Of a DNA stretch of 64,000 nt, positions 1 through 53,298 are shown one piece after another. Source of the stretch: Sphingobium arseniciresistens (GTDB taxonomy: Bacteria; Pseudomonadota; Alphaproteobacteria; Sphingomonadales; Sphingomonadaceae); the NCBI GenBank assembly GCA_029167225.1, contig JARFNK010000022.1, positions 1-64,000 of the forward strand. Reading direction: 5' to 3'. Each line of letters opens with the position of its first letter. Position 1 is the stretch's first letter. The translations under genes were made by a program, and so were the position numbers. The notes below the pieces were generated by a model. That model worked only from the letters and a program-made list of their open reading frames with translations, was not told the origin of the DNA and did not search any database.

Positions 1-219
1 CGCGATGCCGTCGCGCTGCTCGATATCGCCGCCAGGGGCGACTGTGTCGACGTGCTGGCCCGGCGGATCGATGAGGCACTCGACAGCGGGCGCCTGCCCG
101 ATGTCGATGCGCTCAGGGAGGAGTTCCTGCCTACCGCAAGATCACAGCGCGATGTCACTATCCCGCCACCCGATCTGCACAGCTACAACAGCCTGATCGC
201 CAGCGGGGAGGTGCACTGA
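1..219 (+). CDS. istA: IS21-family transposase IstA, C-terminal fragment (cut by window edge)
   Basis: The open frame runs from the first base to a TGA at 217-219 and encodes about 72 residues resembling the C-terminal tail of IstA transposases (LLDIAARGD, EEFLP, SYNSLI). The catalytic DDE domain would lie upstream, outside the window. The stop overlaps the ATG of the next gene as TGATG, the usual translational coupling of istA and istB. Assignment rests mainly on this coupling and on the neighbouring IstB. Confidence 0.75.
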   Translation, partial: RDAVALLDIAARGDCVDVLARRIDEALDSGRLPDVDALREEFLPTARSQRDVTIPPPDLHSYNSLIASGEVH

Positions 220-4541: not shown

Positions 4542-5393
4542 TCAGGCGCTCTCGACTTGGTGGCCGATGGAACCATCGTTCACATGCTGGGCTTCGAGGA
4601 GCGGTTCGATGATGTGGATGATAGTTGCGATTGCGGCGTGGTTCTCGGCATCGGAATCCGAAGGGTGGAACTCCGCGATCTCAAGACCGAGACATTGGTC
4701 AGCTGGGATCGCTTCGAATATCCGCCGAAGCTGGTCCGGCAAAAGGCCGGCTGGAACAGCGTAATCTGCTGGGACAAAGCCCGGCTCGAGCGAGTCCCAA
4801 TCGATATGGATCCAGATCGGCGCTCCGCCGAGCGTAGCTAGAACGGCCTCCGGCGTAGCTTGCGCTGGCGGAATGATCCGCACGCCAGACCTTGTCAGCA
4901 ATTCGGATTCCTTGTCGTCGATGTCCCTCGCACCGAGAAGCACGACCTGTTTCGGGTTGAGCCCGGCACCATGTCCGCTGTTCCAGAGCCCGCAAGCGGC
5001 GGAGACAACCATACCTCCAAGATAGCCCGTTCCTGTGGTCTGTGGCGTGTTGAAATCTCCGTGGGCGTCCACCCATAGAATCGTCGCCTCGGGGTAACAG
5101 GTCGCAACGACCGGCAACGTAGCGAGGCTCGCGGGGCAGGTGTTGGTCACAAGTAATGCGAATTTGCCTTCGGAAATGTTCTCCATCAGCGCGGCCTTCA
5201 AATCGACAAGGGTCGCTCGTGCCTGAGGAAGGCTTATCGACCAGTCATCTTCGGCCGGCTCCGATGGTGATCCGACGGTATGGGTTGTGCCGTCGAAACG
5301 ACTTGCGATGGCGGCTGCGGCAAGACGCGCGCCAATGATGGTGCGGTCTGATCGATCCGCGACACGTCCCTGCGAGACGATGATGTCCAACAT
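4542..5393 (-). CDS. dcsB: Arginase-like N-omega-hydroxy-L-arginine hydrolase (DcsB-like)
   Basis: This 283-residue ureohydrolase is assigned to cleave N-hydroxyarginine to hydroxyurea and ornithine in D-cycloserine synthesis. The arginase metal motifs DAHGD (109-113) and DWDSLEP (198-204) are present. The usual first His ligand motif GGDHS is replaced by TNTCP, with Cys at residue 86. An ordinary arginase should not lack this His, while, from memory, the characterised Streptomyces DcsB has a notable Cys86. It is the last gene of the operon, 4 nt behind dcsG. Function is inferred from fold, this substitution and context; a guanidino hydrolase of another kind is the alternative. Confidence 0.82.
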   Translation of the reverse strand: MLDIIVSQGRVADRSDRTIIGARLAAAAIASRFDGTTHTVGSPSEPAEDDWSISLPQARATLVDLKAALMENISEGKFALLVTNTCPASLATLPVVATCYPEATILWVDAHGDFNTPQTTGTGYLGGMVVSAACGLWNSGHGAGLNPKQVVLLGARDIDDKESELLTRSGVRIIPPAQATPEAVLATLGGAPIWIHIDWDSLEPGFVPADYAVPAGLLPDQLRRIFEAIPADQCLGLEIAEFHPSDSDAENHAAIATIIHIIEPLLEAQHVNDGSIGHQVESA

Positions 5394-5397
5394 GGCT

Positions 5398-6309
5398 TCA
5401 AGCTCCTTGTTCTGCGAGAGTAAGTTTCGATATGGCTACCGCGAATCGTTCGGCGCCGCCTTCCGCGAACTGCAGCGACAATGAGGGCTCCGCAATTTCC
5501 AGTTCGAGCAGCCTCGGACTGCCGTCTTGATCGCGGATCAGGTCTATTCTGGCGTAGAGGAGCGGTCGATCGAGTTGCAGTTTCACGGCCGTTGCCGACA
5601 GAGCGGCTTCGGCAACAGCGCGTTCGTCTTGCGAGGCGATGCGCGGAGCACGGAAATCATTTGTGGGGACATTGACGGTTCCGTCCGCATCGAGAAGCGC
5701 GCCCTTCCTGATGGCGTGACTATATTCTCCATTGAAATAGATCAGGTTGGTTTCTCCTTCTTGATCGATCTTCTTGAGGTAGGGCTGCACGATCGCCGTC
5801 GCACCATCGGACAGCAGAGCGGCAACATGTTCCTCAGCCTTGTCGACGTTTCGACGGCTGTAGCGATGCACACCCTTGGAGTAACATCCGATGGCGGGTT
5901 TGATGACAAAATCCTCCACCGTGGGATTCTGATAGAGATATTCGCGAAGGCAGTCGGGCAGATCGGTGCTGGGCTGGATGAAGTGGGTCGGAACGACGGC
6001 CACGCCGAGAGCTTCGAGATCGCCGAGATAGTGCTTGTCGAGACTCCAGCGAACAGCAGTGGGCGGATTTTGAAGGACCGTTCTGGCTGCCACCGTCTGA
6101 CACCAGGCAAGGAATTCGGGGAGACGCTCGGTATAGTCCCAAGGTGAGCGTAAGACCACGGCATCGAAGGAGGACCATTGGACCGACCCATCATCCCAAA
6201 AGCAGACCTCGACATCGATATGCTCTCGGACGCAAGCATCGAGTAGCAACGGCATGTCATGGTCGTTGGCCAAGCTTGCGCGCGCGGAAACCAATGCAAT
6301 CTTACCCAT
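5398..6309 (-). CDS. dcsG: ATP-grasp D-cycloserine synthetase (DcsG-like)
   Basis: The 303-residue ATP-grasp enzyme is assigned to the ATP-driven cyclisation of O-ureido-D-serine to D-cycloserine. Visible features are the N-terminal RSPWDY motif, the central FVIKPAIGCYSKGV glycine-rich nucleotide loop, QPYLKKIDQEGETNLIYFNGEYSHA, and the metal-binding end LLELEIAEPSLSL. The length is close to that remembered for Streptomyces DcsG. It lies 4 nt before dcsB and 76 nt after dcsC. The ribosome-binding site is weak. A different peptide or amino-acid ligase role cannot be excluded by sequence alone, but the neighbours make it unlikely. Confidence 0.85.
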   Translation of the reverse strand: MGKIALVSARASLANDHDMPLLLDACVREHIDVEVCFWDDGSVQWSSFDAVVLRSPWDYTERLPEFLAWCQTVAARTVLQNPPTAVRWSLDKHYLGDLEALGVAVVPTHFIQPSTDLPDCLREYLYQNPTVEDFVIKPAIGCYSKGVHRYSRRNVDKAEEHVAALLSDGATAIVQPYLKKIDQEGETNLIYFNGEYSHAIRKGALLDADGTVNVPTNDFRAPRIASQDERAVAEAALSATAVKLQLDRPLLYARIDLIRDQDGSPRLLELEIAEPSLSLQFAEGGAERFAVAISKLTLAEQGA

Positions 6310-6385
6310 GTCGAATTCCCGGTTCGGCTATTGCGGAAAATGCTTGCTTCATCAGTTTGTGTGTTCGTGCTGCTGCCACGGCGTG

Positions 6386-7234
6386 CTAGGTCGACAAGGT
6401 GCCGTCGAAGACGAATGCGGCCGGGCCAGTCATGCTGATCTCTGCGGTCGGGCCTGGCCACGAGATGTCGAGGTCGCCCCCCGTCAAGCCAACGGTTACC
6501 TGGCGCGCTACGCGCCCGCGGCGCATGAGCACGGCGGCGGCCGCGCAGGCGCCGCTGCCACAGGCAAGCGTTTCTCCAGAGCCAAATTCATCGACGCGCA
6601 GTTGAATTCGGCTGGCAGATTCCACCTGGACAAAGCCGACATTGAGGCTGGCCGGCAGGCATTCGGCGCTTCGTAATGCCGGGCCTATCACAGCAATTGG
6701 CACGCGCGCGACATCATCAACCTCGATGACCGCGTGTGGATTCCCCATAAAGACTGTGGCGAAACGCAGGCGAGGAAACGCACCGATAGCAAGTTCGTAA
6801 ACGTCTTCCTCGCTGTCGATGCCTGTCATCGGGATTGCCTGAGGGGAAAAGCTCGGGACTCCCAGAGCCACCCGGAACAGGTCTGGCCCCAGCATAGCAA
6901 CAGCGTGCGTTCCGCTCGGACTGTCGAGCGTGAATGAAGAGCCAACGGCGATGCCGGCACGCACCACCCAGGCGGCGATGCAGCGCGCGCCGTTTCCGCA
7001 CTGCTGGGACGACAGGCCGTCCGGAGTCCAGATGCGGTAGGAAGCAATCGAACCGGCCATCAGCGGCGGCGCGACGCCTAGAATGAGATCACAGCCGACA
7101 CCTCGGTGCCGGTCTGATAGGTGGCGGCAGAGGTCGGCAGACGGCACGAAACCGTCGCGGGTGTCGATCACGACGAAGTCATTGCCGAGCCCGTGCATTT
7201 TAGTGAAATCGAGCTGTTGCGTGGAGGCGCCCAT
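6386..7234 (-). CDS. dcsC: DapF-like O-ureidoserine racemase (DcsC-like)
   Basis: This 282-residue enzyme has the diaminopimelate epimerase fold with both catalytic cysteines: Cys79 in QCGNGARC and Cys225 in LACGSGAC. Residues that hold the far end of diaminopimelate are changed: the NADG motif reads TPDG at 70-73, and the ERGxGET motif reads EFGSGET at 216-222, so the substrate Arg is Phe. This argues for a PLP-independent racemase of another amino acid, here O-ureido-L-serine. The ATG shares one base with the upstream SDR stop (TGATG), indicating coupling. It is therefore not called as housekeeping dapF. Confidence 0.85.
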   Translation of the reverse strand: MGASTQQLDFTKMHGLGNDFVVIDTRDGFVPSADLCRHLSDRHRGVGCDLILGVAPPLMAGSIASYRIWTPDGLSSQQCGNGARCIAAWVVRAGIAVGSSFTLDSPSGTHAVAMLGPDLFRVALGVPSFSPQAIPMTGIDSEEDVYELAIGAFPRLRFATVFMGNPHAVIEVDDVARVPIAVIGPALRSAECLPASLNVGFVQVESASRIQLRVDEFGSGETLACGSGACAAAAVLMRRGRVARQVTVGLTGGDLDISWPGPTAEISMTGPAAFVFDGTLST

Positions 7235-7977
7235 CACCAGGGAATCTCGGCATCAAGGTGGAAATACCCACCCGTTGGACCACTGGCGTCAAGGAGCGCG
7301 AGCCTGACGCTGGTTGCGGCTCCAGCTTCGACTTCAAGGTCGCCATCGCCGTCGTTCATGTCGGTCTTTGTATAGCCGGGGTGCGCCGCGTTGACCTTGA
7401 TGCCCGTGTCTCGCAGCTCATATGCGAGATGGACGGTCCAGGAGTTTAGCGCGCTCTTTGAAGCGCTGTAGCCTGGGAGCGATTTGAACTTGTCGTGATA
7501 GGCGTATGAGTCTCGATTCCCATGCGTCGACAGCGATGCGAGCAGGCTCGATACGTTGACGATCCGCGCGGCTTCCGAAGCCCGCAGCAGCGGAAGAAAG
7601 GCTTGCGTGACCGCGACCGTGCCGAACAGGTTGGTCTCGAAGGTCTCGCGCCATTGCGCGAGGGGTTGTTCGGAGGGGCGCTTTCCATATTCCTCGATGC
7701 GTATCGCTGCATTATTCACGAGGACATCGAGGCGGCCAAATCGGTCTTGCACTTCGTCTGCAGCCGCGGTGAGGCTGGCGGGCTGTGCAAGGTCGAGCAC
7801 CAAGGGTTCGACATCCAGGCCAGCGCTCCGGAGATCATGCACTCTCGCGATGACATTCGCGTGGTTCCGACCGGATAGCAAAACCTTGAGCCCGTGTCCT
7901 GCGAGCTGACGCGTAGTCTCGAAACCAATGCCGCGGGTTGCACCGGTAATGAGGGCAAGTTTGGTGAAGTTGGTCAT
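7234..7977 (-). CDS. Short-chain dehydrogenase/reductase in the dcs operon
   Basis: The 247-residue product is a classical SDR: the cofactor motif TGATRGIG lies near residues 11-18, NNAAIR near 90, a catalytic Ser in NVSSLLASL, and YSASKSALNSW (Tyr-x3-Lys). Substrate unknown. It is embedded between dcsE (9 nt gap) and dcsC (1 nt overlap), so it is expressed with the pathway. To my knowledge no SDR is part of the Streptomyces D-cycloserine route; it may modify the product or a precursor, or detoxify an intermediate. Confidence 0.85.
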   Translation of the reverse strand: MTNFTKLALITGATRGIGFETTRQLAGHGLKVLLSGRNHANVIARVHDLRSAGLDVEPLVLDLAQPASLTAAADEVQDRFGRLDVLVNNAAIRIEEYGKRPSEQPLAQWRETFETNLFGTVAVTQAFLPLLRASEAARIVNVSSLLASLSTHGNRDSYAYHDKFKSLPGYSASKSALNSWTVHLAYELRDTGIKVNAAHPGYTKTDMNDGDGDLEVEAGAATSVRLALLDASGPTGGYFHLDAEIPW

Positions 7978-7986
7978 TTCGGTCGC

Positions 7987-9210
7987 CTAGTGGAGAAGAG
8001 CTTGGGCGGGCTCGACAACAGAATGGCTCGCGCGATCGCTTCTCGGCGTCGGTGCCGCCATGAAATGAGTCCGTCGGACGAGAGTGGTGCCGGTCGCGAT
8101 GGTGGCGAGGAATTCCGCGATCACCGGGCCGAAGCGCTCGAAATCCACAAGGAAGGCATCATGGCCCTGAGGTGAATCGAGCGCTACGAATTGCGAGCGC
8201 ACGCCGCCGGCAGAGAGACCGTCAGCAATCTGAAGCTGCTGTTCGAGTGGAAAGAGGATGTCGCTGCGAGCACCTATGACGAGCGCCTTGTCGAGCGTCA
8301 GCCTCGCGAGAACGCCATCCGCGCCCATGCCGTCCTCCTCGCTCAGGTCGAACCAGTCGATTGCGCGGCTAAGATAGAGATAGCAGTTGGGATCATAGGC
8401 GCGAACGAAGCGACGCGCATTTGCTTCGAGATAGGCTTCCACCTCGAATTCGGGTGCAAAGGGGCAGCCGCGCTCGCTGTGATCTGAATCGAGGCGGACG
8501 CGACCGAAGCGGCCATCCCATTCTAGCGCCGACCGGTAGGTGATGAGGCCCAGCTTGCGGGCCGTCGCCATACCGGCGGCCGGATAGAGCGCGCCTTGGT
8601 AGTTTCCCTGATCCCATTGGGGATCGAGCCGGATAGCCTCCCGTTGCAGCGAGCGGACAGCGAGGGAGAAAGGAAGCGCGTGGACTGCGCCGGATATGTC
8701 GATGAGATTCCTCGCGAGTGTCGGATGGCGCGCGACCAAAGAGAGCGCGGTCATCCCACCCATGGAGCTTCCGACGACGCAGGCGAGCTGATCGAAGCCC
8801 AGCGCGCGCACGGCATGAACGGCAGCATCGGCGATGTCCTCGATCGAGAGGTCCGGAAAGGCGAGCCGGTATGGCTCGCCGTTCTCCGGATTGATCGATG
8901 CCGGTCCGCTGGACCCGTTGCAGGAGCCCAGCGAATTCACGCAGATCACGTGCCAAAGGTTGGTATCGATGGGTTTTCCAGGCCCAAGCATCTGTTCCCA
9001 CCACCCGTCAGTCGTGTCATCGACGTGCGCAGCCGCGTGGGCGCTTGGAGAAAGGCCGGTGAGGAGCAGGATGACATTGTCGTGGGATGCGTTCGGACGT
9101 CCCCAGCACTCATAGGCGACGCGGGCACCGTAGAGCGTGCCGCCTCGCTTCATGCGAAACGGTGACGGCAATTCGATGAACTTGGTCGCGGGCGGGATCA
9201 ATTCACCCAT
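7987..9210 (-). CDS. dcsE: MetX-like L-serine O-acetyltransferase (DcsE-like)
   Basis: This 407-residue alpha/beta hydrolase-fold acyltransferase belongs to the homoserine O-acetyltransferase group. The nucleophile elbow is GSSMGGM, with NSLGSCNGSSGPASINP before it; the acid Asp is in ARSDILFP and the His in QGHDAFL. In the D-cycloserine pathway the homologous DcsE makes O-acetyl-L-serine. AGGAGA sits about 6 nt before the ATG. The last 45 residues extend beyond the usual fold and look unstructured. In another setting it would be called metX, but the gene neighbours support serine as substrate. Confidence 0.82.
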   Translation of the reverse strand: MGELIPPATKFIELPSPFRMKRGGTLYGARVAYECWGRPNASHDNVILLLTGLSPSAHAAAHVDDTTDGWWEQMLGPGKPIDTNLWHVICVNSLGSCNGSSGPASINPENGEPYRLAFPDLSIEDIADAAVHAVRALGFDQLACVVGSSMGGMTALSLVARHPTLARNLIDISGAVHALPFSLAVRSLQREAIRLDPQWDQGNYQGALYPAAGMATARKLGLITYRSALEWDGRFGRVRLDSDHSERGCPFAPEFEVEAYLEANARRFVRAYDPNCYLYLSRAIDWFDLSEEDGMGADGVLARLTLDKALVIGARSDILFPLEQQLQIADGLSAGGVRSQFVALDSPQGHDAFLVDFERFGPVIAEFLATIATGTTLVRRTHFMAAPTPRSDRASHSVVEPAQALLH

Positions 9211-9264
9211 GGCCTGTCTCCTGTCGATGGTGATTGATGGGGGGCCGGCATGTCGCGCCTCGCG

Positions 9265-9501
9265 TCAGTCCAGCGATGCCAGCCAGGCGTCGTCGGATCC
9301 CTCGTTGACCCCTTCGAGGAGAAAGGTGCTCAGATAGCGCTCGCCTGTATCGGGTAGCATGGCGAGAAAAACGGAACCCTCCGGCGCTTCGCGCGCGACC
9401 TGCAAGGCCAGCGCGACGGACGCGCCTGCGGAGATGCCGACAAATATCCCTTCCTCGGCCGCAAGCCGTCGGGCGGTATTGCGGGACTCGTCCTCGTCGA
9501 C
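9265..9501 (-). pseudogene. dcsD: dcsD 3' fragment (C-terminal end of CysK-like O-ureidoserine synthase)
   Basis: Read on the minus strand from the IS junction, this piece encodes the C-terminal 78 residues of a cysteine synthase family enzyme: [18 protein letters not shown], then [26 protein letters not shown], ending DDAWLASLD. It continues exactly where the N-terminal piece at 14013-14743 stops (LLPVDD), once one copy of the 8-bp duplication is removed. It has no start codon of its own and lies 54 nt before dcsE. Confidence 0.93.
9494..9501. repeat. Target site duplication, left copy (TCGTCGAC)
   Basis: The 8 bp directly before the IS terminus TGAGG are TCGTCGAC, identical to the 8 bp after the right terminus at 14013-14020. 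An 8-bp duplication is within the range made by IS21 elements and proves insertion into an intact dcsD. Confidence 0.92.
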
Positions 9502-9616
9502 TGAGGATCAGCGTGCAATAGGCACCCCCTTCGTGGGGTGATCGGCGTGCAAAAAGGACCCCTTCATCCCGGGGATTTAGTCGGCCGACTGGTTTTGATC
9601 AGTTGGCGAGAACGGG

Positions 9617-11131
9617 ATGTTGATCGTGGAGACAGTGGTTCGGATTCGGCGTGAGCATGCAGCGGGTAAGGCGATCAAGGCGATCGCTCGTGACCTTCGT
9701 TTGTCGCGGAAGGTCGTCCGCAAAGCGATCCGGTCGCCGGAGGCGGCGTTCAACTATCAGCGCAAAGTCCAGCCGCTGCCGCGGATCGGTCCTTATCAGG
9801 ATCGTCTCGATGCGCTGCTTGAGGAGAACGAAGGTCGCGGCCGCCGCGATCGGCTACGGATGACGCGTATCCATGACCTGCTGGTGCGCGAGGGGTTCGA
9901 TGGATCCTATGATGCGGTGCGCCGCTATGCGGCGCGCTGGCGTGCTGCGCGGCGGAAGGATGCTGGCGAAGGCGCACCGGCGTTCATCCCGATGACCTTC
10001 CAGCCGGGTGAGGCCTACCAGTTCGACTGGAGCCACGAGGATGTGGAGATCGCCGGCAAGCCGATGCGGGTGAAGGTGGCGCATATGCGTCTCTGCGACT
10101 CGCGCGCACCCTATGTCCGGGCCTATCCGCGCGAGGGCCAGGAGATGCTGTTCGATGCCCATGCCCGGGCGTTCGCGTTCTTCGGCGGTGTGCCGCGACG
10201 CGGTATCTACGATAATATGAAGACGGCGGTGACGGCCGTGTTCACCGGCAAGGAGCGTGTGTTCAACCGCCGCTTCCTGATCATGACCGATCATTACATG
10301 GTCGAGCCGACCGCCTGCTCGCCGGCGGCGGGATGGGAGAAGGGCCAGGTCGAGCAGCAGGTCCAGACAATCCGAGGCCGCTTCTTCCAGCCGCGGCTCC
10401 GGTTCGCCAGCCTGGCCGAGCTCAACGGGTGGCTGGAGGCCGAGTGCCGGCGCTGGGCCGAGCATCATGCCCATCCCGAACGCGGGGATATTACCGTCGC
10501 CGAGGCGCTGGATATGGAGCGACCGGCCCTGCAGCCGATCCTGGCACCGTTCGACGGCTTCCATGAGAGCGAGCATGCCGTCACCGGCACCTGCCTCATC
10601 AGCTTCGATCGCAACCGCTACTCGGTCATGTCGACGGCCGCACGCCGGACCGTTCAGGTGCGCTCCTATGCCGATCGCATCGTCATACGCTGCGGCGATG
10701 CGATCGTCGGGGAGCATGAGCGCCACTTCGGTCGGAACCGCACGATATACGATCCCTGGCATTATCTGCCGGTCCTCGCGCACAAGCCCGGCGCGCTGCG
10801 TAACGGCGCACCGTTCCAGGACTGGGATCTGCCGCCCGCCCTGCACCGATTACGGCGAAGGCTCGGCACCGGGGACGAGGCCGATCGCAGGTTCGTGCGG
10901 GTCCTCTCGGCGGTGCTCACCGATGGCCTGGAGCCGGTAGAGGCTGCCGTGCGCGAAGCGTTGGCGAACGGAACGGCCAGCGACGAGCTGATCCTCAACA
11001 TCCTCTCCCGGCGCCGCGAGCCGGCGACACCCCACAGCATCGTCACTTCGGAAGACCGGATGCTGCAGCATCCTCCGCTCGCCGACTGTGCCCGCTATGA
11101 TCTGCTGCGAGGCTATGATGCAGCGGCATGA
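9617..11131 (+). CDS. istA: IS21-family transposase IstA
   Basis: The 504-residue DDE transposase has an N-terminal helix-turn-helix ([21 protein letters not shown], about residues 19-39). Its catalytic domain has the first Asp in YQFDWSHE, the second in [10 protein letters not shown] and the Glu in [11 protein letters not shown]. Length and motif order are normal for IS21. The istB reading frame starts inside its last codons. The gene looks intact, so the element may still be mobile or recently was. Confidence 0.95.
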
Positions 11132-11846
11132 TATGATCGACACGATGCGCGGCCTCGGACTCAAGGGCATGGCGGCGGCGTTCGACGAGGCGGTCACCAC
11201 CGGCCTCCAGCGCAAGCGCACCACCATGGAGATACTGACCGACCTGCTCCGTGCTGAGGCGACCCACCGGGATGCAGCCTCCATCCGCTATCGGATGACG
11301 GCTGCGAGGCTGCCCGTGGTGAAGGACCTGGAGCGGTTCAGCTTCGAGGGCACACCGATCAATGAGGAGATGATCCGCTCCCTTCACGATGGCTCCTTCC
11401 TCCCGCCTCGCCGCAATATCGTGCTGGTCGGCGGCACGGGGACAGGCAAGACCCACCTCGCCATCGCGATCACCGCCAATGTCGTGCGAAGGGGCGCTCG
11501 CGCCCGCTACTTCAACACCGTCGATCTGGTGACACGCCTCGAAGAGGAGACCCGGATCGGCAAAGGCGGGACCCTGGCGGCGCAGCTGTCGCGGCTCGAC
11601 CTGATCGTTCTCGACGAGCTCGGTTATCTGCCGTTCGCCCGCTCGGGAGGGCAGTTGCTGTTCCACCTCATCAGCAAGCTTTATGAGCGGACCAGCGTCA
11701 TCATCACCACGAACCTCGCCTTCGGCGAATGGCCGACCGTGTTCGGCGATCCCAAGATGACCACGGCGCTGCTCGACCGCGTCACCCACCACTGCGATAT
11801 CGTCGAGACGGGCAACGACAGCTGGCGCTTCAAAAACCGCAGCTGA
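11115..11846 (+). CDS. istB: IS21-family helper ATPase IstB
   Basis: This AAA+ ATPase of about 243 residues has Walker A (GGTGTGKT), Walker B (LIVLDELGY) and a C-terminal end [19 protein letters not shown] that is typical of IstB. The start is placed at the first ATG of an ATGATG pair overlapping the istA stop; an upstream in-frame ATG at 11088 would also be open. The group II intron begins some 60 nt after its stop, so the protein is intact. Confidence 0.93.
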
Positions 11847-11944
11847 CAGCCACCTTCGGCGCCTTCAAAAATCTATCTTGCGCTGCGCGCGCCTCCGGTC
11901 GGGGTCGAGTAGCCGCGGCAGATTACTCCACCGCGGCTCTCTCA

Positions 11945-11975
11945 GAACCGGACATGCGGACCACGCATCCGGCTC
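11945..11975 (-). ncRNA. Group II intron domain V hairpin
   Basis: Read on the minus strand, the 31 nt begin GAGCCGGATGCG and end CATGTCCGGTTC. This is the conserved catalytic hairpin of group II introns, placed between the maturase stop and the domain VI branch-point stem. Confidence 0.85.
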
Positions 11976-11987
11976 CTTGGGTCGATA

Positions 11988-13433
11988 TCAGAGTGCCAGT
12001 ACGAACTGGTTATTGACCCGTGGGGGGTTTAGCTCGTGCCATCGAGCTTTGAGCGAGATCAGTCGTCCATGGAACCATGAAGGAGGGTAAGCCCTCACGA
12101 TCCCGGGTCGATTGGATTTCGCCCAGCTCCCCTTTCCGCAATACGCGGTGCCAGCGGCGGCTTTGCGACTGACCCCGCGCGACAGAAGGTACCGGAACAA
12201 GAAGCGCGGACGCTTCTTTTGACGCACGATGATCGCCCTGAGCCGACGGCGAACGTGGGCGTCAATGACCCCCAGTTCAGACGCCACCTCTGCGGTGCAG
12301 AGGCGGTAATATGCCGACCATCCGTTCAGGTATCGACCAAGATCGGCCATGCAGGTCATGATCGATCTCCCCCAGTTGGGCGGAGTCATGTCCCGAATAG
12401 TCGTCAGCAGTCGACGCTTCGTTTTGCGGGACAGCGCGACCTCGATTGAGGACACACCATCTGTGCAGCGGAAGCAAAAGCCGAGGAAGTGGACCTGCTC
12501 CGGTTTCCGGATGCCGCTTTTCTCCTCATTGACCTGAAGGCGCAATCGCTCCTCCAGAAAACGCCGAAGAGATGCCATGACACGGATCCCGGCTCGCTCA
12601 CTGCGCACAAAGACGTTGGCGTCATCGGCGTAGCGAACGAAACGTAGCCCGCGTCGCGCCATCTCCTGATCGAACTCGTCGAGAACGATGTTTGATAGAA
12701 ATGGCGAAAGCGGACCGCCTTGCGGAGTTCCCTCAACGACTTCGATACGTGTGCCATCCGGCATCACCACGGCCGACTTCAGCATTCGTCGTATCAGGTT
12801 GAGTATCCGCCGGTCGGCCACCCGCTGACTCATTCGATCCAGCAGGCGTTGGTGATGAACCCGGTCAAAAAATTGCGCCAGATCCAGATCAACCACCGTC
12901 CGAAAGCCCTCTTCCAGATATTCAGTCGCTTCAGCAATTGCCGTATGAGCACCACGATTACGACGGAACCCATGACTGCTGGGATGGAAGGTTGGTTCAA
13001 ATATCGGCTCCAGAATCTGGAGAACCGCCTGTTGAACCACCCTCGTTCTCACATTGGGAATGCCCAGACCGCGCTGACCTCCGCCGGGTTTGGGAATCCA
13101 GACCCGACGAATATCCCCTGGGTAAAAGCGTTCCGCCAACAGTACACGGCGCAGTTCAGTCAGCAGACGCGGAGCTTGCGCTTCGGCCTCCTCAACCGTC
13201 TGGCCGTCGATCCCCGGTGCCCCCTTATTGCGTACAACGGACAGTAGCGCCCGCGCGAGATTTGCCTCGGACGCTACCGCCTCCAGCAGCCGATTTGAAT
13301 CGGCTGCCCGGGTGAAAGAACTTGTCATGGTTTTGTGCTTCGCTGTGTGCAGTAGCCATGACCGACGCTCGGGTTCGCCCGAACCTCCGACATCGCCACC
13401 CCCTCGCGGGCTGTCGGCGAACACGAAGCTCAA
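11988..13433 (-). CDS. ltrA: Group II intron reverse transcriptase/maturase
   Basis: The protein (about 480 residues) has RT blocks in order: NKGAPGIDGQTVEE, PKPGGGQRGLGIP, SSHGFRRNRGAHTA, DLDLAQFFDRVHH, GTPQGGPLSP and the catalytic RYADDANVFV. A maturase X domain follows (LGRYLNGWSAYYR). No HNH endonuclease is visible, which fits class C introns. A TTG at 13433 with AGAAGGAAGGG about 10 nt upstream is preferred; the first ATG (13328) has no ribosome-binding site. The stop lies just before domain V, so the gene occupies domain IV. Confidence 0.93.
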   Translation of the reverse strand: MSFVFADSPRGGGDVGGSGEPERRSWLLHTAKHKTMTSSFTRAADSNRLLEAVASEANLARALLSVVRNKGAPGIDGQTVEEAEAQAPRLLTELRRVLLAERFYPGDIRRVWIPKPGGGQRGLGIPNVRTRVVQQAVLQILEPIFEPTFHPSSHGFRRNRGAHTAIAEATEYLEEGFRTVVDLDLAQFFDRVHHQRLLDRMSQRVADRRILNLIRRMLKSAVVMPDGTRIEVVEGTPQGGPLSPFLSNIVLDEFDQEMARRGLRFVRYADDANVFVRSERAGIRVMASLRRFLEERLRLQVNEEKSGIRKPEQVHFLGFCFRCTDGVSSIEVALSRKTKRRLLTTIRDMTPPNWGRSIMTCMADLGRYLNGWSAYYRLCTAEVASELGVIDAHVRRRLRAIIVRQKKRPRFLFRYLLSRGVSRKAAAGTAYCGKGSWAKSNRPGIVRAYPPSWFHGRLISLKARWHELNPPRVNNQFVLAL

Positions 13434-14012
13434 TTGATGATGTCCCTTCCTTCTCAACCCATCTCTCCCTTTGCTCCGCCGACTTTCACCGGCTTCATCG
13501 CTCCTACGGAGAGATCCGACTTCTGCAGGGGCATCGGCGGTCGTCGTTTCCTCCTACCCGCCTACCGCTCACGCGGACCCCAACAGATCTCCCGGGGTAA
13601 GAACACTGGATATGCCGCCGCCGCCGCCCTCACTACCGCCCCGGTCTCGGTTGGATTTTGGGCATCGCGTTTGTAGGCACGCTCACCCGACCGGATCGGC
13701 CTGTCCAAGGGTTCACTCGCGTTCGGTGCTGCGGTTCGTCTAAGACTTCCTCCCCACACGGCCTCGCGGCATCAGCGCCTTGCGCATCTCACGATGGGCA
13801 CGCTGCGTGCAGTTGTCTTCGACTTACGGTTGCTACCAACTCGCCCCGTAAAGGACTTTCACCTCCTATCCAGTGCCCATGCCCGGCACACCTACGCCCG
13901 CCCTCCGCCGCACGCAGCGCAAGGCCATCTTCAACAAACCAGCATCATATTATCTGAAAAGGGGGTCCCTCTTCGACGCCGATCGGGGGTCCCTTTTGAA
14001 CGCCGTTTGACA

Positions 14013-14020
14013 TCGTCGAC
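14013..14020. repeat. Target site duplication, right copy (TCGTCGAC)
   Basis: The 8 bp after the IS terminal CA are identical to those at 9494-9501. They encode the Val-Asp-Asp part of LLPVDD in dcsD. Confidence 0.92.
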
Positions 14021-14743
14021 CGGCAGGAGCGTATCGATGACGCTTCGGTCCAGGATGCTGGGGACGAAATTCGGGGCAAGGCCCTGAATCTGGTGTACAT
14101 GCCATTCTTGGCCCGCGAGCACCTGAGCGGTTGCCGGCTCTGCGACAGTGATCTGCACGTCAGGACGTGCCCGCTTGAGCATCTGTCCGACACCCGTTAG
14201 CGTTCCGCTCGTGCCGAAGCCGGTCACGAAATAGTCGAGTCGCTTGCCAGCGAAATCACTCAATATCTCCGCCGCCGTCGTTTGCCGGTGAAACGCTGGA
14301 TTTGCCGGATTGTCGAACTGGCGGGCTCGGAACCAGCCATGTTTCTCGGCCAGCTCATCGGCGATTTTGTTACCGCCACTGCTGCCAAGCGCGCTCGGAA
14401 AGAGGAGAACCTTGCCCCCATAAGCACGGATGAGCTTGCGGCGTTCGACGGAGTATCCGTCGCCCATCACAGCGACGAACCGATAGCCGCGAGCGGCGGC
14501 GACCATGGCGAGCGCAATTCCAACATTGCCGGAGGTGCATTCCACGATGGTGTCGCCGGCCTTGAGAAGGCCTTTTGCCTCGGCGTCGAGAACGACCGCG
14601 AGCGCCAGGCGATCTTTGACAGATCCACCCGGGTTGAACGACTCGACCTTGACGTAAACCTGGACATGGCTCGGCGGGAGCCGATGGAGCTTGACGATGG
14701 GCGTCCGGCCGACAGTATCGAGGATGGATTGATATAACGCCAT
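14013..14743 (-). pseudogene. dcsD: dcsD 5' fragment (CysK-like O-ureido-L-serine synthase, interrupted)
   Basis: The first 243 or so residues belong to a PLP-dependent cysteine synthase family enzyme. The PLP lysine is in NPGGSVKDR (about residue 44), the cofactor loop is ECTSGNVGIAL and the phosphate loop GFGTSGTLTG. The reading frame then runs into the IS and would add about 27 foreign residues before stopping at 13931. In D-cycloserine synthesis DcsD joins O-acetylserine and hydroxyurea. AAGGTGAAAA precedes the ATG. With its C-terminal lobe cut off the enzyme is probably inactive. Confidence 0.93.
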
Positions 14744-14812
14744 TTTTCACCTTGCGAGGAAGAAGCTTGTCAGCAGCCCCAGCATAGAGGGACGACCGAC
14801 ACATTGGTGGAA

Positions 14813-15571
14813 TCAGGGATTTCGGAACATGAAGGGGCACCGTTCGGTTCGCTCCGCGTTCTCCTCAATGATCCCATATTGCTGCCATTCCACAGCGCCT
14901 GACCCATACGTGCCGAGCTGCAGGCAATGTTCGGATTGATCGTAGGCGGCGATACGGCCCCGGATAGCCGCGCGCAGCTTGCGTCCTGAGGGCGTATCGC
15001 CCGCAACATCATCGAAGCGCTCGCGCGGATTGATCACGAAGATGAAATGCTCGCCCAGATTGCGGGATTTTCGGATGCGATGCGCCGGATGACTCATGTT
15101 GCAGAAGAGCGGCATCCCGTTGAAGCACATCGACCAGAAAGGAGAATCGGGATCGGCGCCAACCCCTTCAGGCCAGGGAGCGGGGTCGATCTCATGCAGC
15201 TTCTGGAGCACCGTCCAGCCGAACTCATGATATTCTTCAACCGTTTGAGCTGCGGCCGCTTCTTGCGAGAAGGCCACGAGCAGCGGATAAGCAGTGTTGA
15301 TGTCCCCGTTCCAGTCACGGGAGAGCTCAACATATTCCGCCAGCGCGCGACCGAGATGTCGATAGGAGCTGTCGCTAGTGTTTTCGACGAAGGCGAATCT
15401 CAGAAGGCCGTTCTTGAAAGCATTGCGTGAAAAGGGGCACGGGAATCCTGACTGCGGCCCGAGCCGATCGGCCAACCCCTGAAATACGCTCCTGTGCCAG
15501 TCCGGGCTGGATGTGCCAATATCTGCTTGAGTCAGCAGATATGATTCGCAAGTTCGCACGCTCGACTTCAT
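14813..15571 (-). CDS. dcsA: YqcI/YcgG family haem-dependent L-arginine N-hydroxylase (DcsA-like)
   Basis: This 252-residue protein carries the YqcI/YcgG pattern: FPCPFSRNAFKNGLLRFAFVE near the N-terminus, FNGMPLFCNMSHPAHRIRKSR, then NLGEHFIFVINPRERFD and a C-terminal RGRIAAYD. Family members GntA and DcsA are haem proteins that hydroxylate guanidino nitrogens; His residues in SHPAHR and GEHF are candidate haem or substrate ligands. The ATG at 15571 has GGGGAGG 6-7 nt upstream. It is the first gene of the operon, divergent from the MocR regulator. It should turn arginine into N-hydroxyarginine for DcsB. Confidence 0.84.
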   Translation of the reverse strand: MKSSVRTCESYLLTQADIGTSSPDWHRSVFQGLADRLGPQSGFPCPFSRNAFKNGLLRFAFVENTSDSSYRHLGRALAEYVELSRDWNGDINTAYPLLVAFSQEAAAAQTVEEYHEFGWTVLQKLHEIDPAPWPEGVGADPDSPFWSMCFNGMPLFCNMSHPAHRIRKSRNLGEHFIFVINPRERFDDVAGDTPSGRKLRAAIRGRIAAYDQSEHCLQLGTYGSGAVEWQQYGIIEENAERTERCPFMFRNP

Positions 15572-15669
15572 CGAACACCTCCCCATGATCTGATGATCAA
15601 GGAAATTTGGCAGCTATTATTTGCGCTTATTCACAGCGCGTTGCTGGGAACTGCCTAGAGATGTTCACC

Positions 15670-15698
15670 TTGAGAAGTAAGAAACAGTCCGATACAAT
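15670..15698 (+). promoter_or_regulatory. Predicted sigma70-type promoter of the mocR gene
   Basis: TTGAGA (15670-15675) and TACAAT (15693-15698) are separated by 17 nt and lie about 50 nt before the mocR ATG. The -10 lies inside the shared operator, which would give autorepression. Confidence 0.55.
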
Positions 15699-15712
15699 TT
15701 TCCCGAACTGTG
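15679..15712 (-). promoter_or_regulatory. Putative MocR operator, dcsA/mocR intergenic copy
   Basis: On the plus strand the element reads AAGAAACA, then ..T.C.ATACAATTT with a C and ACTGTG 11 nt on. The same 34-bp arrangement, with 19 of the first 22 positions identical, recurs at 19334-19367 before the exporter gene. It is in the same orientation relative to dcsA and to eamA, and covers the likely mocR -10. An inverted pair CAGTCCG/CGAACTG flanks the centre in this copy. Confidence 0.65.
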
Positions 15713-15745
15713 TTACTACTATTCGTCATACAGATCGGGATACAA

Positions 15746-17143
15746 ATGGCCCCACAATTTGGATCAAAAACCATTGAGGTGATGGAAGCTATCCGTGCTA
15801 AGGTTGCTAATCGGGCATTTGCGGTCGGCGACCGGCTTCCCTCGATTCGTAACCTCGCAGCTACCTTGTCGGTATCGCCGTCCACGGTCGTGGAGGCCTA
15901 TGAGCGTCTGGCTGCGGAAGGTCTGGTTCGAGCTCGCAGGGGCTCGGGCTACTACATCTCCGCATCCGTGTGGCCTGCACTTGCACTTGGCGATGACGAC
16001 CGAAAGCTCGATCGGACGGTCGACCCGTTCTGGGTTTCGAGACAATCACTTGATGCGAACCCGACCACGTTGAAGCCGGGTTGCGGCTGGTTACCCGCGA
16101 ATTGGATGCCGGGCGACGCGCTGCGGAAGGAATTGCGTTCTCTTGCACGCGCCGAAGAGTTCATCCTGACGGACTATGGAAGCACGAGCGGAAGCGCGGA
16201 TTTGCGCCGCCTGTTGCTAATGCGATTTGCAGAAGATGGCGTCGAGGCGACTCCCGATCAACTCATGCTAACCGCGTCGGGGACGCAAGCGATCGATCTG
16301 GTTTGTCGGCTTCTGCTGCGCCCGGGGAGCGTCGTGCTGGTCGATGACCCTTGCTACTTCAACTTCCGGGCGTTGCTGCGCGCACACCAGGCGGAAGTGG
16401 TCGGTGTGCCCTATACACCCACGGGGCCAGACATTGCTCAGTTTGAGGCGCTTGTCGTTGAGCATCGACCGCGACTCTATATCACCAATTCGGCGCTTCA
16501 TAATCCCACCGGCGGGACACTATCGCCGCATGTGGCGCATTCTATTCTGAACATTGCTACCGCGCATGACATGATCATCGTGGAGGATGAAATCTTCGCC
16601 GATTTCGAGCCCGAGCCCTCTCCGCGCCTTGCAGCTCTTGACGGATTGAAGCGGGTGATCCGGATCGGGAGCTTCTCCAAGACGCTCTCGGCGTCGATCC
16701 GTTGCGGCTATATTGCAACGCGCGCTGAGTGGATTGGGGATTTGGTGGACCTCCAGGTTGCGATCAATTTTGGGGGACCAAGTCCGATCGCCGCCAACCT
16801 GATCGCCGGTGTGCTGACGAGCGGAGGTTATCGTAAGCACATGGATGCTTTGCGGCTGCGCCTTGTGCGCACCCGAAGGGAGGTGGCCGACAAGCTGCAG
16901 AATCTCGGCTTCGAGATGTGGCTAATGCCCCGCGGCGGCTTCTTCTTGTGGTGTCGCCTGCCTGAGCGGCTGAACGCGGCGGATCTCGCGCGCGCAGCCT
17001 TAGCCGATGACATCGTTCTGGCGCCGGGCGACGTCTTCAGCGTCACCGGATCAGCGTCTACCTATATGCGGTTCAACGTTGCGCAATCGACCGATCCCAG
17101 AATTTGGGAGACGATGAAACGGGCCATCGCAGCATCTCGGTAA
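15746..17143 (+). CDS. MocR/PdxR family regulator (GntR HTH fused to aminotransferase domain)
   Basis: The 465-residue protein starts with a GntR winged helix (about residues 10-75: RLPSIRNLAATLSVSPSTVVEAYERL, then VRARRGSGYYIS). A class I aminotransferase-fold domain follows, with the PLP lysine in RIGSFSKTLSASIRCGY. Such regulators sense PLP or amino acids through the second domain. The first ATG of the longer frame (15710) is not used here because ATG 15746 matches the family N-terminus. It diverges from dcsA and is the likely pathway regulator, possibly sensing cycloserine or serine derivatives. Confidence 0.92.
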   Translation: MAPQFGSKTIEVMEAIRAKVANRAFAVGDRLPSIRNLAATLSVSPSTVVEAYERLAAEGLVRARRGSGYYISASVWPALALGDDDRKLDRTVDPFWVSRQSLDANPTTLKPGCGWLPANWMPGDALRKELRSLARAEEFILTDYGSTSGSADLRRLLLMRFAEDGVEATPDQLMLTASGTQAIDLVCRLLLRPGSVVLVDDPCYFNFRALLRAHQAEVVGVPYTPTGPDIAQFEALVVEHRPRLYITNSALHNPTGGTLSPHVAHSILNIATAHDMIIVEDEIFADFEPEPSPRLAALDGLKRVIRIGSFSKTLSASIRCGYIATRAEWIGDLVDLQVAINFGGPSPIAANLIAGVLTSGGYRKHMDALRLRLVRTRREVADKLQNLGFEMWLMPRGGFFLWCRLPERLNAADLARAALADDIVLAPGDVFSVTGSASTYMRFNVAQSTDPRIWETMKRAIAASR

Positions 17144-17146
17144 GGC

Positions 17147-18385
17147 TCAACTTCCGATCTGGGGGAGCTCTTTCGCCTTGGCCCACTTATTGTCGTCCGG
17201 GATGTTCACTCCAGCAGACTGGAGGTAGCGCTTGATGTTGCGCGCTGCCTGCCGGATGCGCTGCTCGTTTTCAACCAAGGCGAGACGCACATAGCCCTCG
17301 CCGCTTGGCCCGTAACCGACTCCGGCAGCGACGGCGACTTTGGCATGAAGCAAAAGCTGTTTGGAGAATTCCAGACTGCCGAGATGTGCGAGCGCAGGAG
17401 GGATTGGCGCCCAGGCGAACATCGAGGCGCACGGCACTGGTATCTCCCAGCCGCTGCGCGCGAAGCTGCCGACGAGGACATCTCGTCGCCGTCGATAGAG
17501 CTCGCGGTTTTGTGCGACGATGTCCTGAGGGCCTTTGAGAGCGGCGCAGGCGGCGGCTTGGATCGGCGTAAAGGCGCCATAATCGAGATAGGACTTTATG
17601 CGGGCCATCGCTTCGATCAGCCGCTTGTTGCCAACGGCGAAGCCGATGCGCCACCCGGCCATGCTATAGGATTTGCTGAGCGAGGTGAACTCGACGGCAA
17701 CGTCGATGGCATCCTCGACCTGCAGAATCGATACTGTCGGTCGGCCATCGTAATAGAGTTCGGCATAGGCGAGGTCGCTAATGATCCAGATTCCGTGCCT
17801 CTTGGCAAAAGCAACCAGGCGGGCATAGAATGCGAGGTCCGCCACCTCCGCGGTCGGGTTCGAGGGGTAGTTGACGACAATGACCTTCGGCAGACGATCG
17901 CGCTCTGCCAGCGCCTCAAGCGCGACGAAATAGCGGTCGTCTGGGCTAGTCGGAAGAGGCGCGATCTCTGCGCCGGCCATGATAAAGCCAAAGGTATGGA
18001 TCGGATAGGAAGGATCCGGGGCGGCTACCAAGTCTCCCGGAGCGATGATTGCGCTGGCAAGGCTTGCAAGGCCCTCCTTTGAGCCCATAGTGACGACGAC
18101 TTGGCTGTCAGGTTCAAGGGTGACGCCGAAGCGCCGGGCATAATAGTCCGCCTGAGCACGGCGCAGCCCGGGAATGCCCTTCGACTGCGAATAGCCATGG
18201 GCATTGGGCTTGAGCGCTACCTCGACCAGCTTCGCGATGACGTGTGGCGGCGGAGGCAGATCCGGATTGCCCATGCCGAGGTCGATGATATCGTCCCCGG
18301 CGGACCGAGCTGCCGTTCTCATCGCGTTCGTCTCGGCGATGACATAGGGTGGCAGGAGGCTCAGCCGATAGAATTCTTCCGACAT
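17147..18385 (-). CDS. AlaC-like class I aminotransferase
   Basis: This 412-residue PLP enzyme belongs to fold type I aminotransferases of the alanine/LL-DAP group. It has DIIDLGMGNPD at the N-terminus, NYPSNPTAEVAD, SDLAYAELYYDG and the PLP lysine in SLSKSYSMAGWR, and closes with an Arg in GYVRLAL. The likely reaction is glutamate-pyruvate transamination. It ends 3 nt from the mocR stop (convergent) and lies 37 nt downstream of eamA, so it is probably co-transcribed with the exporter. Since cycloserine blocks PLP enzymes of alanine metabolism, an extra alanine aminotransferase could serve self-protection; that is inference. Confidence 0.85.
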   Translation of the reverse strand: MSEEFYRLSLLPPYVIAETNAMRTAARSAGDDIIDLGMGNPDLPPPPHVIAKLVEVALKPNAHGYSQSKGIPGLRRAQADYYARRFGVTLEPDSQVVVTMGSKEGLASLASAIIAPGDLVAAPDPSYPIHTFGFIMAGAEIAPLPTSPDDRYFVALEALAERDRLPKVIVVNYPSNPTAEVADLAFYARLVAFAKRHGIWIISDLAYAELYYDGRPTVSILQVEDAIDVAVEFTSLSKSYSMAGWRIGFAVGNKRLIEAMARIKSYLDYGAFTPIQAAACAALKGPQDIVAQNRELYRRRRDVLVGSFARSGWEIPVPCASMFAWAPIPPALAHLGSLEFSKQLLLHAKVAVAAGVGYGPSGEGYVRLALVENEQRIRQAARNIKRYLQSAGVNIPDDNKWAKAKELPQIGS

Positions 18386-18422
18386 AGTGATCTCGCGGCA
18401 AGAGAAGGATGGTTGAACTGGA

Positions 18423-19283
18423 TCACGCGAAGCGCTTGGCGCCCGCCACGCACAGCACGACGACGGCGGTCGATAGCATCATCGACCATGCGACCGGCTC
18501 ATGGAGGAGAACGGCCGCTAGGATGAGGCCGAAAAAGGGTTGGAGCAGCTGCAATTGTCCAACGCCGGCGATGCCGCCGAGCGCAAGTCCGCGATACCAG
18601 AAGATGAACCCCACCAGCATGCTGAACACCGAGACGTAGCCCAAGCTAAACCAGGCGGCCGGGGTGACTCCAATCCAGCTCTTCGGCAAGGTGGCGATCG
18701 TGATGGCGGCCATCATGGGTAGAGCCAATAGAAGAGCCCAGGAAATGACTTGCCACCCGCCGAGGCGTCGGGACAGCGTCGCGCCTTCGGCATAACCGAG
18801 CCCGCAAAGCAGGATGGCTGCCACCATCAACAGGTCGCCGATCGGTGATCCTCCAACTGCGCGGGTCAGGGCGAAACTCACAACAGTCGCCGCGCCGAGG
18901 GTTGAGAACACCCAGAAAGCGGTCTTGGGCCGCTCTCCGCCGCGAATGACACCGAATACCGCGGTCGAGAGCGGCAGAAGGCCTATGAAGACGATCGAAT
19001 GCGCTGCAGTGACGTGCTGTAGTGCGAGCGCCGTGAGCATCGGGAAGCCCAGCACGACGCCAAGCGCGACGATTAGCAGGGGAACGATGTCGGCGCGCTT
19101 CGGTCGAGCTTCACGGAACGCAACCAGGAGAGCCGCGGCGAGAAAGGCTGCGATGACCGCGCGTGCCGCCGTGAGGAAGAGTGGTTCGAAATCGGCAACG
19201 GCGACCCGCGTCGCAGGGAGTGATCCGCTGAAGATGATGACCCCAAGTAACCCGCTGCCCCAGCCGGCGGTCGTTCTTTCCAT
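18423..19283 (-). CDS. EamA family drug/metabolite transporter, candidate cycloserine exporter
   Basis: The 286-residue membrane protein has about ten hydrophobic segments in two EamA repeats, for example GLLGVIIFSGSLPATRVAV, LLIVALGVVLGFPMLTALAL and, near the end, FFGLILAAVLLHEPVAWSMM. The ATG at 19283 is preferred, with AGGAAAGCGAGG just upstream. Its promoter region carries the element shared with the mocR/dcsA gap, tying it to the dcs operon. A membrane protein conferring partial resistance is known in the Streptomyces cluster; whether this one is its functional equivalent is not shown. Confidence 0.87.
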   Translation of the reverse strand: MERTTAGWGSGLLGVIIFSGSLPATRVAVADFEPLFLTAARAVIAAFLAAALLVAFREARPKRADIVPLLIVALGVVLGFPMLTALALQHVTAAHSIVFIGLLPLSTAVFGVIRGGERPKTAFWVFSTLGAATVVSFALTRAVGGSPIGDLLMVAAILLCGLGYAEGATLSRRLGGWQVISWALLLALPMMAAITIATLPKSWIGVTPAAWFSLGYVSVFSMLVGFIFWYRGLALGGIAGVGQLQLLQPFFGLILAAVLLHEPVAWSMMLSTAVVVLCVAGAKRFA

Positions 19284-19333
19284 GCGCCCTCGCTTTCCTT
19301 TACTGTCGGATAAATCTCGGACCCACCGAGTGG

Positions 19334-19367
19334 AAGAAACAATGCAATACAATTTGGACATACTGTG
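19334..19367 (-). promoter_or_regulatory. Putative MocR operator, eamA copy
   Basis: The plus strand reads AAGAAACA, ATGCAATACAATTT, then ACTGTG at the same spacing as in the copy at 15679-15712. It ends 51 nt before the eamA ATG. A weaker direct repeat of the AATACA.TTT core lies near 19382-19391. Confidence 0.62.
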
Positions 19368-19551
19368 CGGCTTATATGGCCAATACACTTTTGAAGCGTG
19401 GCGATTGTCGGATCACCTGCCGGTCTCTGGCTGGTGGCCGGGAGAGCCTGCAGGTAGCGCTGTGCCACCCACGTTAGCCGTCGTGCCATATGCCCAGGAT
19501 CTCAGTCTCCGGGCTTACGGGAACGATCAGCCGAGTCTTCTAATCCCTAGT

Positions 19552-20673: not shown

Positions 20674-20717
20674 GGGCCTGCTCCTGAAGTTCGGACTCAT
20701 CAACACGCCCGACTCGA

Positions 20718-53295: not shown

Positions 53296-53298
53296 CCG

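Follow-up and report, generated by a model that had tools for sequence, protein, structure and literature searches.

A probable D-cycloserine biosynthesis locus with candidate co-regulated self-protection genes on plasmid-type DNA of Sphingobium arseniciresistens, interrupted by an insertion in dcsD

D-cycloserine is a second-line tuberculosis drug whose biosynthetic route is known from Streptomyces; the D-cycloserine (dcs) cluster of Streptomyces lavendulae ATCC 11924 was reportedly described by Kumagai in 2010. Genes of the same types occur in a stretch of 64,000 nucleotides from Sphingobium arseniciresistens (assembly GCA_029167225.1, positions 1 to 64,000 of the 93.4-kb contig JARFNK010000022.1; hereafter, the window), which raises the question of whether this pathway also exists in a Gram-negative bacterium, whether it is intact there, and how its carrier might be protected. 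We consider it likely that the window holds a Gram-negative D-cycloserine biosynthesis locus with its own co-regulated self-protection, inactivated in this strain by an insertion. The pathway is the known one; the locus is new by its host, gene order, regulation and likely protection.

The pathway genes are located on the minus strand between 4542 and 15586 in the order dcsA-D-E-SDR-C-G-B (SDR, short-chain dehydrogenase), with intergenic gaps of -4 to 76 bases, the insertion excepted. All six protein types that an initial annotation had placed in one minus-strand operon were recovered there by reading frames and Pfam/NCBIfam matches, and the MocR regulator, the AlaC-type aminotransferase and the EamA protein that it had linked to the operon follow beyond dcsA. 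That annotation did not list the seventh operon gene, an SDR gene at 7234-7977 that shares 4 bases with dcsC. In G+C content the dcs genes (0.57-0.65) resemble the window as a whole (0.62). The features are:

4542-5393, minus: dcsB, assigned as N-omega-hydroxy-L-arginine amidinohydrolase, which yields hydroxyurea (PDB, identity, motifs)
5398-6309, minus: dcsG, assigned as D-cycloserine synthetase of the ATP-grasp type (NF058666, PDB 6jil)
6386-7237, minus: dcsC, assigned as O-ureidoserine racemase of the DapF family (PDB 7vdy, tree, motifs)
7234-7977, minus: SDR, probably DcsF (PF00106, SDR of Amycolatopsis circi, motifs)
7987-9210, minus: dcsE, assigned as L-serine O-acetyltransferase of the MetX family (PDB 3vvl)
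9265-9501, minus: 3' piece of dcsD, assigned as O-ureido-L-serine synthase, CysK-like (PDB 3x43)
9494-9501: left copy of the target duplication TCGTCGAC (sequence comparison)
9502-14012, plus: IS21-family insertion sequence (IS) splitting dcsD, with istA at 9617-11131 and istB at 11088-11846 (TG...CA ends, families)
11904-13773, minus: group II intron within the IS, outer ends approximate, with a reverse transcriptase-maturase at 11988-13457 (RF02001, RF00029, RVT_1, GIIM)
14013-14743, minus: 5' piece of dcsD, the right copy of TCGTCGAC being 14013-14020 (PDB 3x43)
14813-15586, minus: dcsA, assigned as haem-type L-arginine N-hydroxylase, YqcI/YcgG (PF08892, A. circi DcsA)
15674-15733, minus: candidate promoter/operator block of the MocR-EamA type, towards dcsA (46.2 bits)
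15746-17143, plus: MocR regulator with a GntR head and a body of the pyridoxal phosphate (PLP) aminotransferase fold (PF00392, PF00155, SFSKT motif)
17147-18385, minus: AlaC-type aminotransferase, the genome's second copy (NF006604)
18423-19283, minus: predicted EamA-type exporter, DMT family (PF00892)
19329-19388, minus: candidate promoter/operator block of the MocR-EamA type, towards EamA (57.5 bits)

The start codon of EamA is likely at 19283, because alignments with its relatives run from that point through all 286 residues, and that of MocR likely at 15746, because an earlier start would overlap the promoter block.

Each enzyme was searched against PDB chains, and families were assigned with Pfam and NCBIfam. 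For DcsB, DcsC, both pieces of DcsD, DcsE and DcsG the best PDB match was the characterised pathway enzyme, DcsA being the exception; together with a DcsG score above its equivalog cut-off, this upholds the proposed identity as a D-cycloserine pathway. DcsG reached 431.5 bits against NF058666, the NCBI equivalog for D-cycloserine synthetase (cut-off 360), and its sole PDB match was 6jil, itself a DcsG (E=2e-97). The top match of DcsB was 6lug (E=9e-99; best true arginase 7e-18), and its motifs DAHGDFNT and HIDWDSLEPG are kept. DcsC, with both Cys motifs kept, matched 7vdy best (1.1e-112, 379 bits; best DapF 230 bits), and DcsE matched 3vvl (8e-164, 549 bits; next other MetX 215 bits), an entry titled homoserine O-acetyltransferase that we take to be DcsE. 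The 5' piece of DcsD aligned with residues 1-240 of 3x43 (E=4e-128, 429 bits; next cysteine synthase 250 bits) and is 80-82% identical to DcsD of S. lavendulae and A. circi; the 3' piece, read apart from it, aligned with residues 243-319 (E=7e-34; next cysteine synthase 1.2e-14). DcsA was assigned by family (PF08892, 202 bits) and linkage, and is 55% identical to the DcsA of A. circi with which it was compared. The SDR belongs to PF00106, keeps the YSASK and Ser motifs, and is 64% identical to an SDR between dcsE and dcsG of A. circi. The family motifs, which we take to carry the catalytic residues, are kept in the copies compared.

Trees were built for DcsC, DcsD/CysK and DcsB, not for DcsE, DcsG and DcsA. 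DcsC of the window, S. lavendulae and A. circi grouped in one clade (98/94) that excludes the DapF of the window's genome, although a DapF from a distant Pseudomonadota genome (G926) lay on their side of the midpoint. The five-row DcsD/CysK tree was uninformative: only 34% of its bootstrap replicates kept the Dcs group together, and two CysK branches were very long. The DcsB tree did not resolve its branching. By PDB matches and identities, and for DcsC alone also by tree, DcsB, the racemase and the serine acetyltransferase are of the Dcs type and not housekeeping enzymes.

The dcsD gene is interrupted by 4,511 bases (9502-14012) that start with TG and end with CA. A perfect 8-base target duplication, TCGTCGAC, stands on both flanks of the insertion, and both dcsD pieces are in frame right up to it. 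The ends of IS21 elements follow a TG...CA rule, and the insertion displays IS21-family features, namely IstA, an IstB frame, TG...CA ends and a short target duplication. IstA was assigned by Mu-transpos_C_2, its rve match being below the cut-off, and IstB (11088-11846) from its reading frame alone. Nested in the IS on the minus strand is a group II intron with its own maturase (RF02001 and RF00029; RVT_1 and GIIM). An intact O-ureido-L-serine synthase gene was not found, since the gene is split although both pieces are of the DcsD type, and the genome contained no second DcsD-like gene, just two CysK-like matches at 45% identity to the 5' piece. Because dcsD is broken and no second copy was found, the description of the pathway as self-contained does not hold for this assembly, and the strain probably no longer makes D-cycloserine. 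In addition, the insertion is likely to be polar on the expression of dcsE to dcsB. The state of the locus fits a recent break, as the other frames are full length with their motifs, the dcsD pieces are in frame and the G+C content hardly departs from the window's.

Identities to the S. lavendulae counterparts are 52.5-80.0% for DcsB, C, D, E and G, DcsG (52.5%) and DcsB (56.6%) being the least conserved of these five. DcsA and probably the SDR, in the place of F, are alike by type, identities having been taken for B-E and G. The window cluster differs from that of S. lavendulae in its order A-D-E-SDR-C-G-B, its plasmid-type DNA, its Gram-negative host and its split dcsD, and it has MocR, AlaC and EamA instead of an adjoining Ddl. 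A single-protein scan of genome contigs, which detects close relatives only, yielded four loci. One of them, in A. circi DSM 45561 (L002), holds all seven genes within 6.3 kb at identities of 53-82% (A 55, B 53, C 54, E 64, SDR 64 and G 56%; DcsD 82 and 69% for the two pieces), but its order is A-B-C-D-E-SDR-G and it is uninterrupted. Since the SDR of A. circi occupies the position between dcsE and dcsG that corresponds to the letter F, the SDR of the window is probably DcsF; PMC10214352 names six enzymes, DcsABCDEG, without F. No MocR, AlaC or EamA match was obtained within the 13.9 kb of the A. circi locus examined. The other three of the four loci, from Cognataquiflexum and Aquiflexum, matched by DcsG alone (29-30%). 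S. lavendulae and A. circi are 60.1-84.2% identical to each other and either is 52.5-81.8% identical to the window, with the same relation in each of the five proteins, and therefore the window cluster stands furthest from the others; the dcs genes seem to have travelled together. After dcsG of A. circi (L002, 10939-13610), two frames were read as class IV aminotransferase-like and MFS-like, perhaps its DcsH and an exporter, and the contig ends soon past them.

How rare the locus is was addressed by DcsG surveys in overlapping samples, comprising all genomes of the collection for the genus and a part of each higher rank, with actinomycetes outside the survey. The genome's own DcsG was the sole match among 94 genomes of the genus and among 385 of the class (both E<=1e-45), and it alone exceeded the cut-off among 298 of the family, where 111 others matched more weakly. 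At phylum level 4 of 398 genomes matched (E<=1e-50): that of the window itself, and three others with identities of 45-47%. These three DcsG-like loci (L022/G926, L023/G809 and L024/G1023) were rejected as dcs clusters because tblastn found no further dcs gene in about 20 kb each; solitary DcsG-like proteins of this kind (about 45%) perhaps make another ATP-grasp product. An uninterrupted copy of the operon, which the initial annotation had suggested seeking in related genomes, was not found in the genus by this DcsG survey; the A. circi cluster is intact. No near-identical copy of 4542-9270 was present among 72,556 plasmid records, and no DcsG relative in viral contigs. DcsB relatives occurred in 21 plasmid records (37.8-58.1% identity among the best 20 of 21), and DcsA relatives reached up to 38% among the best 20 of 22 records. 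Titles and abstract openings, from a literature with few subscription journals, described no Gram-negative D-cycloserine cluster. Six DcsB-like plasmid loci (L019-L021 and L066-L068, 38-57% identical to the window) came from Pseudorhizobium, Rhizobium, Ensifer, Shinella and Pantoea, two of the six plasmids being typed as conjugative. Five of them were checked for other dcs genes, L067 lying outside this set, and none was detected by tblastn (L019, L020, L021) or named in the annotation (L066, L068).

The genes beyond dcsA raise the question of regulation. Relatives of EamA and MocR were found in 221 and 218 plasmid records, respectively. Twelve records were common to the best 20 EamA and best 25 MocR matches, with the two genes adjacent in eight and not in four. 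In all nine EamA loci that were read, MocR stood divergently beside EamA (eight by annotation, L072 by tblastn), a set that is biased, as four loci were picked after positions had shown the pair and the four non-adjacent records were left out. Such pairs occur in Proteobacteria, on plasmids of Paracoccus, Variovorax, Erwinia, Azospirillum, Roseateles and Novosphingobium, with identities of 61-68% for MocR and 68-76% for EamA among the matches listed. Neither dcs genes nor AlaC were found about 4 kb each way in L070-L073 (tblastn, E 1e-15) or in the annotation of about 1.6 kb each way in the five further loci. The literature search yielded no paper on MocR together with EamA. The window shares with these pairs the 60-base block that lies between their two genes, but the MocR (plus strand) and EamA (minus strand) genes of the window converge, with AlaC between them.

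The intergenic block of the nine loci contains CTGTATGG, CCATACAG, AATTGTAT and CTGT at fixed spacing. A 60-base weight matrix was built from these loci, left-out members scoring 27.6-56.8, and run on both strands of the window. It returned 57.5 bits before EamA (19329-19388), reading towards EamA, and 46.2 bits before dcsA (15674-15733), reading towards dcsA. The next best score in the window was -8.1, and the best values were 2.9 in 310,399 bases of 16 other loci and 2.1 in ten shuffled windows. The block on the dcsA side is the new fact. Read cautiously, MocR would have kept its upstream region while dcsA moved in behind it, dcsA still being under that promoter. MocR carries the SFSKT motif of the PLP lysine. 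As the promoter model finds two sites in the window, one before EamA and one before dcsA, pathway, exporter and second AlaC look like one MocR regulon.

The AlaC-type enzyme of the cluster scores 660 bits against NF006604 (cut-off 648) and is 75% identical to the genome's own AlaC on contig C44. Among 41 genomes of the genus, 37 have one AlaC, the window's genome alone has two, and three have none (E 1e-150), these three being 60, 81 and 91% complete. The own AlaC is 92.7-95.2% identical to those of seven congeners, whereas the cluster copy is 75-77% identical to all eight, and thus the cluster copy is judged to be foreign and no recent local duplicate. AlaC matches occurred in 81 plasmid records, and in the three loci read the annotation showed neither MocR nor EamA beside it. 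The genome has one Ddl over the cut-off, the same as each of nine congeners. PMC6804068 offers a Ddl together with a membrane protein as the proposed basis of self-resistance in the Streptomyces producer. Escherichia coli is reported to become resistant to D-cycloserine when alaA, ddlA or eamA is present in additional copies (PMC8579933). Six inserts also conferred this resistance on E. coli (PMC5112248), one of them with GntR-family, partial EamA-like and multidrug transporter genes; the authors state that the resistance gene of that insert could not be named with high confidence. By analogy with these reports, EamA is read as an exporter and AlaC as an alanine supplier.

In the intact pathway, DcsA would hydroxylate L-arginine and DcsB would cleave the hydroxyarginine to hydroxyurea and ornithine. 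DcsE would acetylate L-serine, DcsD would join O-acetylserine and hydroxyurea to O-ureido-L-serine, DcsC would convert this to the D form, and DcsG would close the ring using ATP; the SDR would be a conserved part of the cluster. MocR probably senses cycloserine or an alanine-like ligand through its PLP-carrying domain and would act at two similar sites, before dcsA and before the EamA-AlaC operon. The role of EamA would be to carry the drug out of the cell, and that of the additional AlaC-type enzyme to enlarge the alanine pool competing with D-cycloserine. The IS21-family element with its intron split dcsD and probably cut dcsE-dcsB expression, while the genes for the presumed export and alanine supply stay whole.

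Whether the locus belongs to the strain and is mobile can be judged from its surroundings. A large helicase gene beside the cluster has relatives in 33 plasmid records of several orders, the best (80-81%) in Sphingopyxis and Rhizorhabdus plasmids. Genes for PRTRC ParB, protein B (E2) and ThiF (PF14460, PF02195) form a PRTRC-type sphingomonad plasmid backbone; the PRTRC/ParB genes matched nine plasmid records, all from Rhizorhabdus, Novosphingobium, Sphingobium, Sphingopyxis or Sphingomonas and annotated as PRTRC. These matches agree with the mobile, sphingomonad-like element of the initial annotation, and we infer a sphingomonad host. Acquisition from actinomycetes does not follow from the comparison of the three clusters, in which the window's stands furthest from the other two in each of five proteins. 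To the right on the contig lies an isocitrate lyase region with matches in 38 of 40 congeners (77-84%). As the 20 kb that precede isocitrate lyase had no blastn match to the window (E 1e-10) in five congeners, the left part of the contig seems to be extra in this strain; that comparison located neither an element border nor an empty site. The window contained no tRNA, and the genome search found no 16S. A further IstB (PF01695) sits at the contig start (window 219-1028), and the contig therefore probably broke at a repeated IS.

Several points weigh against a D-cycloserine locus with co-regulated protection. With dcsD broken, the strain may yield nothing. DcsA shares its family, PF08892, with the guanidine N-hydroxylases GntA and AglA, whose products differ; its nearest solved relative is AglA (E=1e-25), and against the GntA equivalog it scores 54 bits, far short of the cut-off of 145. 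The blocks behind the matrix were anchored by hand, the site at EamA was to be expected because the loci were chosen by EamA similarity, and the block before dcsA, which adjoins MocR, may simply be that gene's own old upstream region. None of the ten locus proteins belongs to the Ddl family, and the resistance reports concern eamA and alaA of E. coli, of which the window's EamA and AlaC are presumed counterparts. MocR, AlaC and EamA could accordingly be unrelated neighbours, a common amino-acid export pair that landed beside the cluster, as no dcs gene was seen near the pair in nine plasmid loci, four of them searched by tblastn over about 4 kb each way and five read by annotation over about 1.6 kb each way. 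We regard this as unlikely, given that EamA is parted from MocR and now stands behind an AlaC-type operon partner, and that the block is present twice, once before dcsA and reading towards it.

Other objections concern the pathway itself. The split dcsD without a second copy in the genome, and the isolation of this DcsG among 94 genomes of the genus, would suit a remnant in decay, a by-product of plasmid traffic that at no time worked in this lineage; however, the other dcs frames are full length with motifs, both dcsD pieces stay in frame as far as the duplication and the dcs G+C content is near the window's, all of which fits a recent break and makes a remnant distinctly improbable. Somewhat less probable still is a cluster that makes a relative of D-cycloserine or stops early, exporting O-ureidoserine or hydroxyurea, with the substrate of DcsG or DcsC shifted. 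The position of DcsB and DcsG as the least conserved of the five enzymes compared with S. lavendulae would allow this and the SDR may alter the product, but DcsC and DcsG, needed only for the last two steps, are both present with motifs kept, and an SDR accompanies the actinomycete cluster as well. An assembly error or a contaminating contig is hardly credible: contamination is estimated at 6.02% and the assembly measures 6.6 Mb compared with 2.4-6.2 Mb in congeners, but the same contig carries the isocitrate lyase region shared with congeners, its backbone is like those of sphingomonad plasmids, and the target duplication of the insertion is perfect.

A Gram-negative D-cycloserine locus with its own protection, if correctly read, would be a second form of the pathway that shows its wider history and provides enzymes from a distant branch. 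It would also supply a testable ligand for the common MocR-EamA pair and possibly a natural case of protection by export plus alanine supply, and the broken dcsD would show an antibiotic pathway silenced while the likely protection genes remain whole. More tentatively, and with rather more doubt than confidence on our part, MocR-EamA pairs across Proteobacteria may be efflux modules that sense D-cycloserine or another alanine analogue, one of which was remodelled in this locus to serve a Gram-negative producer as switch and exporter, the foreign AlaC replacing the Streptomyces Ddl as a shield by way of the alanine pool.

Three further regions of the window were recorded. A DpdA-family protein (PF23859, 72.6 bits; 19552-20706) adjoins the backbone helicase; this family acts in 7-deazaguanine insertion into DNA. 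A caspase-domain protein (40568-42909; PF00656, weak, 22.6 bits), flanked by genes without a Pfam match, marks a region that is possibly a defence island on the element. At 52027-54276, a protein with FGE-sulfatase and DinB_2 domains, presumably the make-up of EgtB, is followed by a gene read as EgtD-like, and the two are probably ergothioneine genes.

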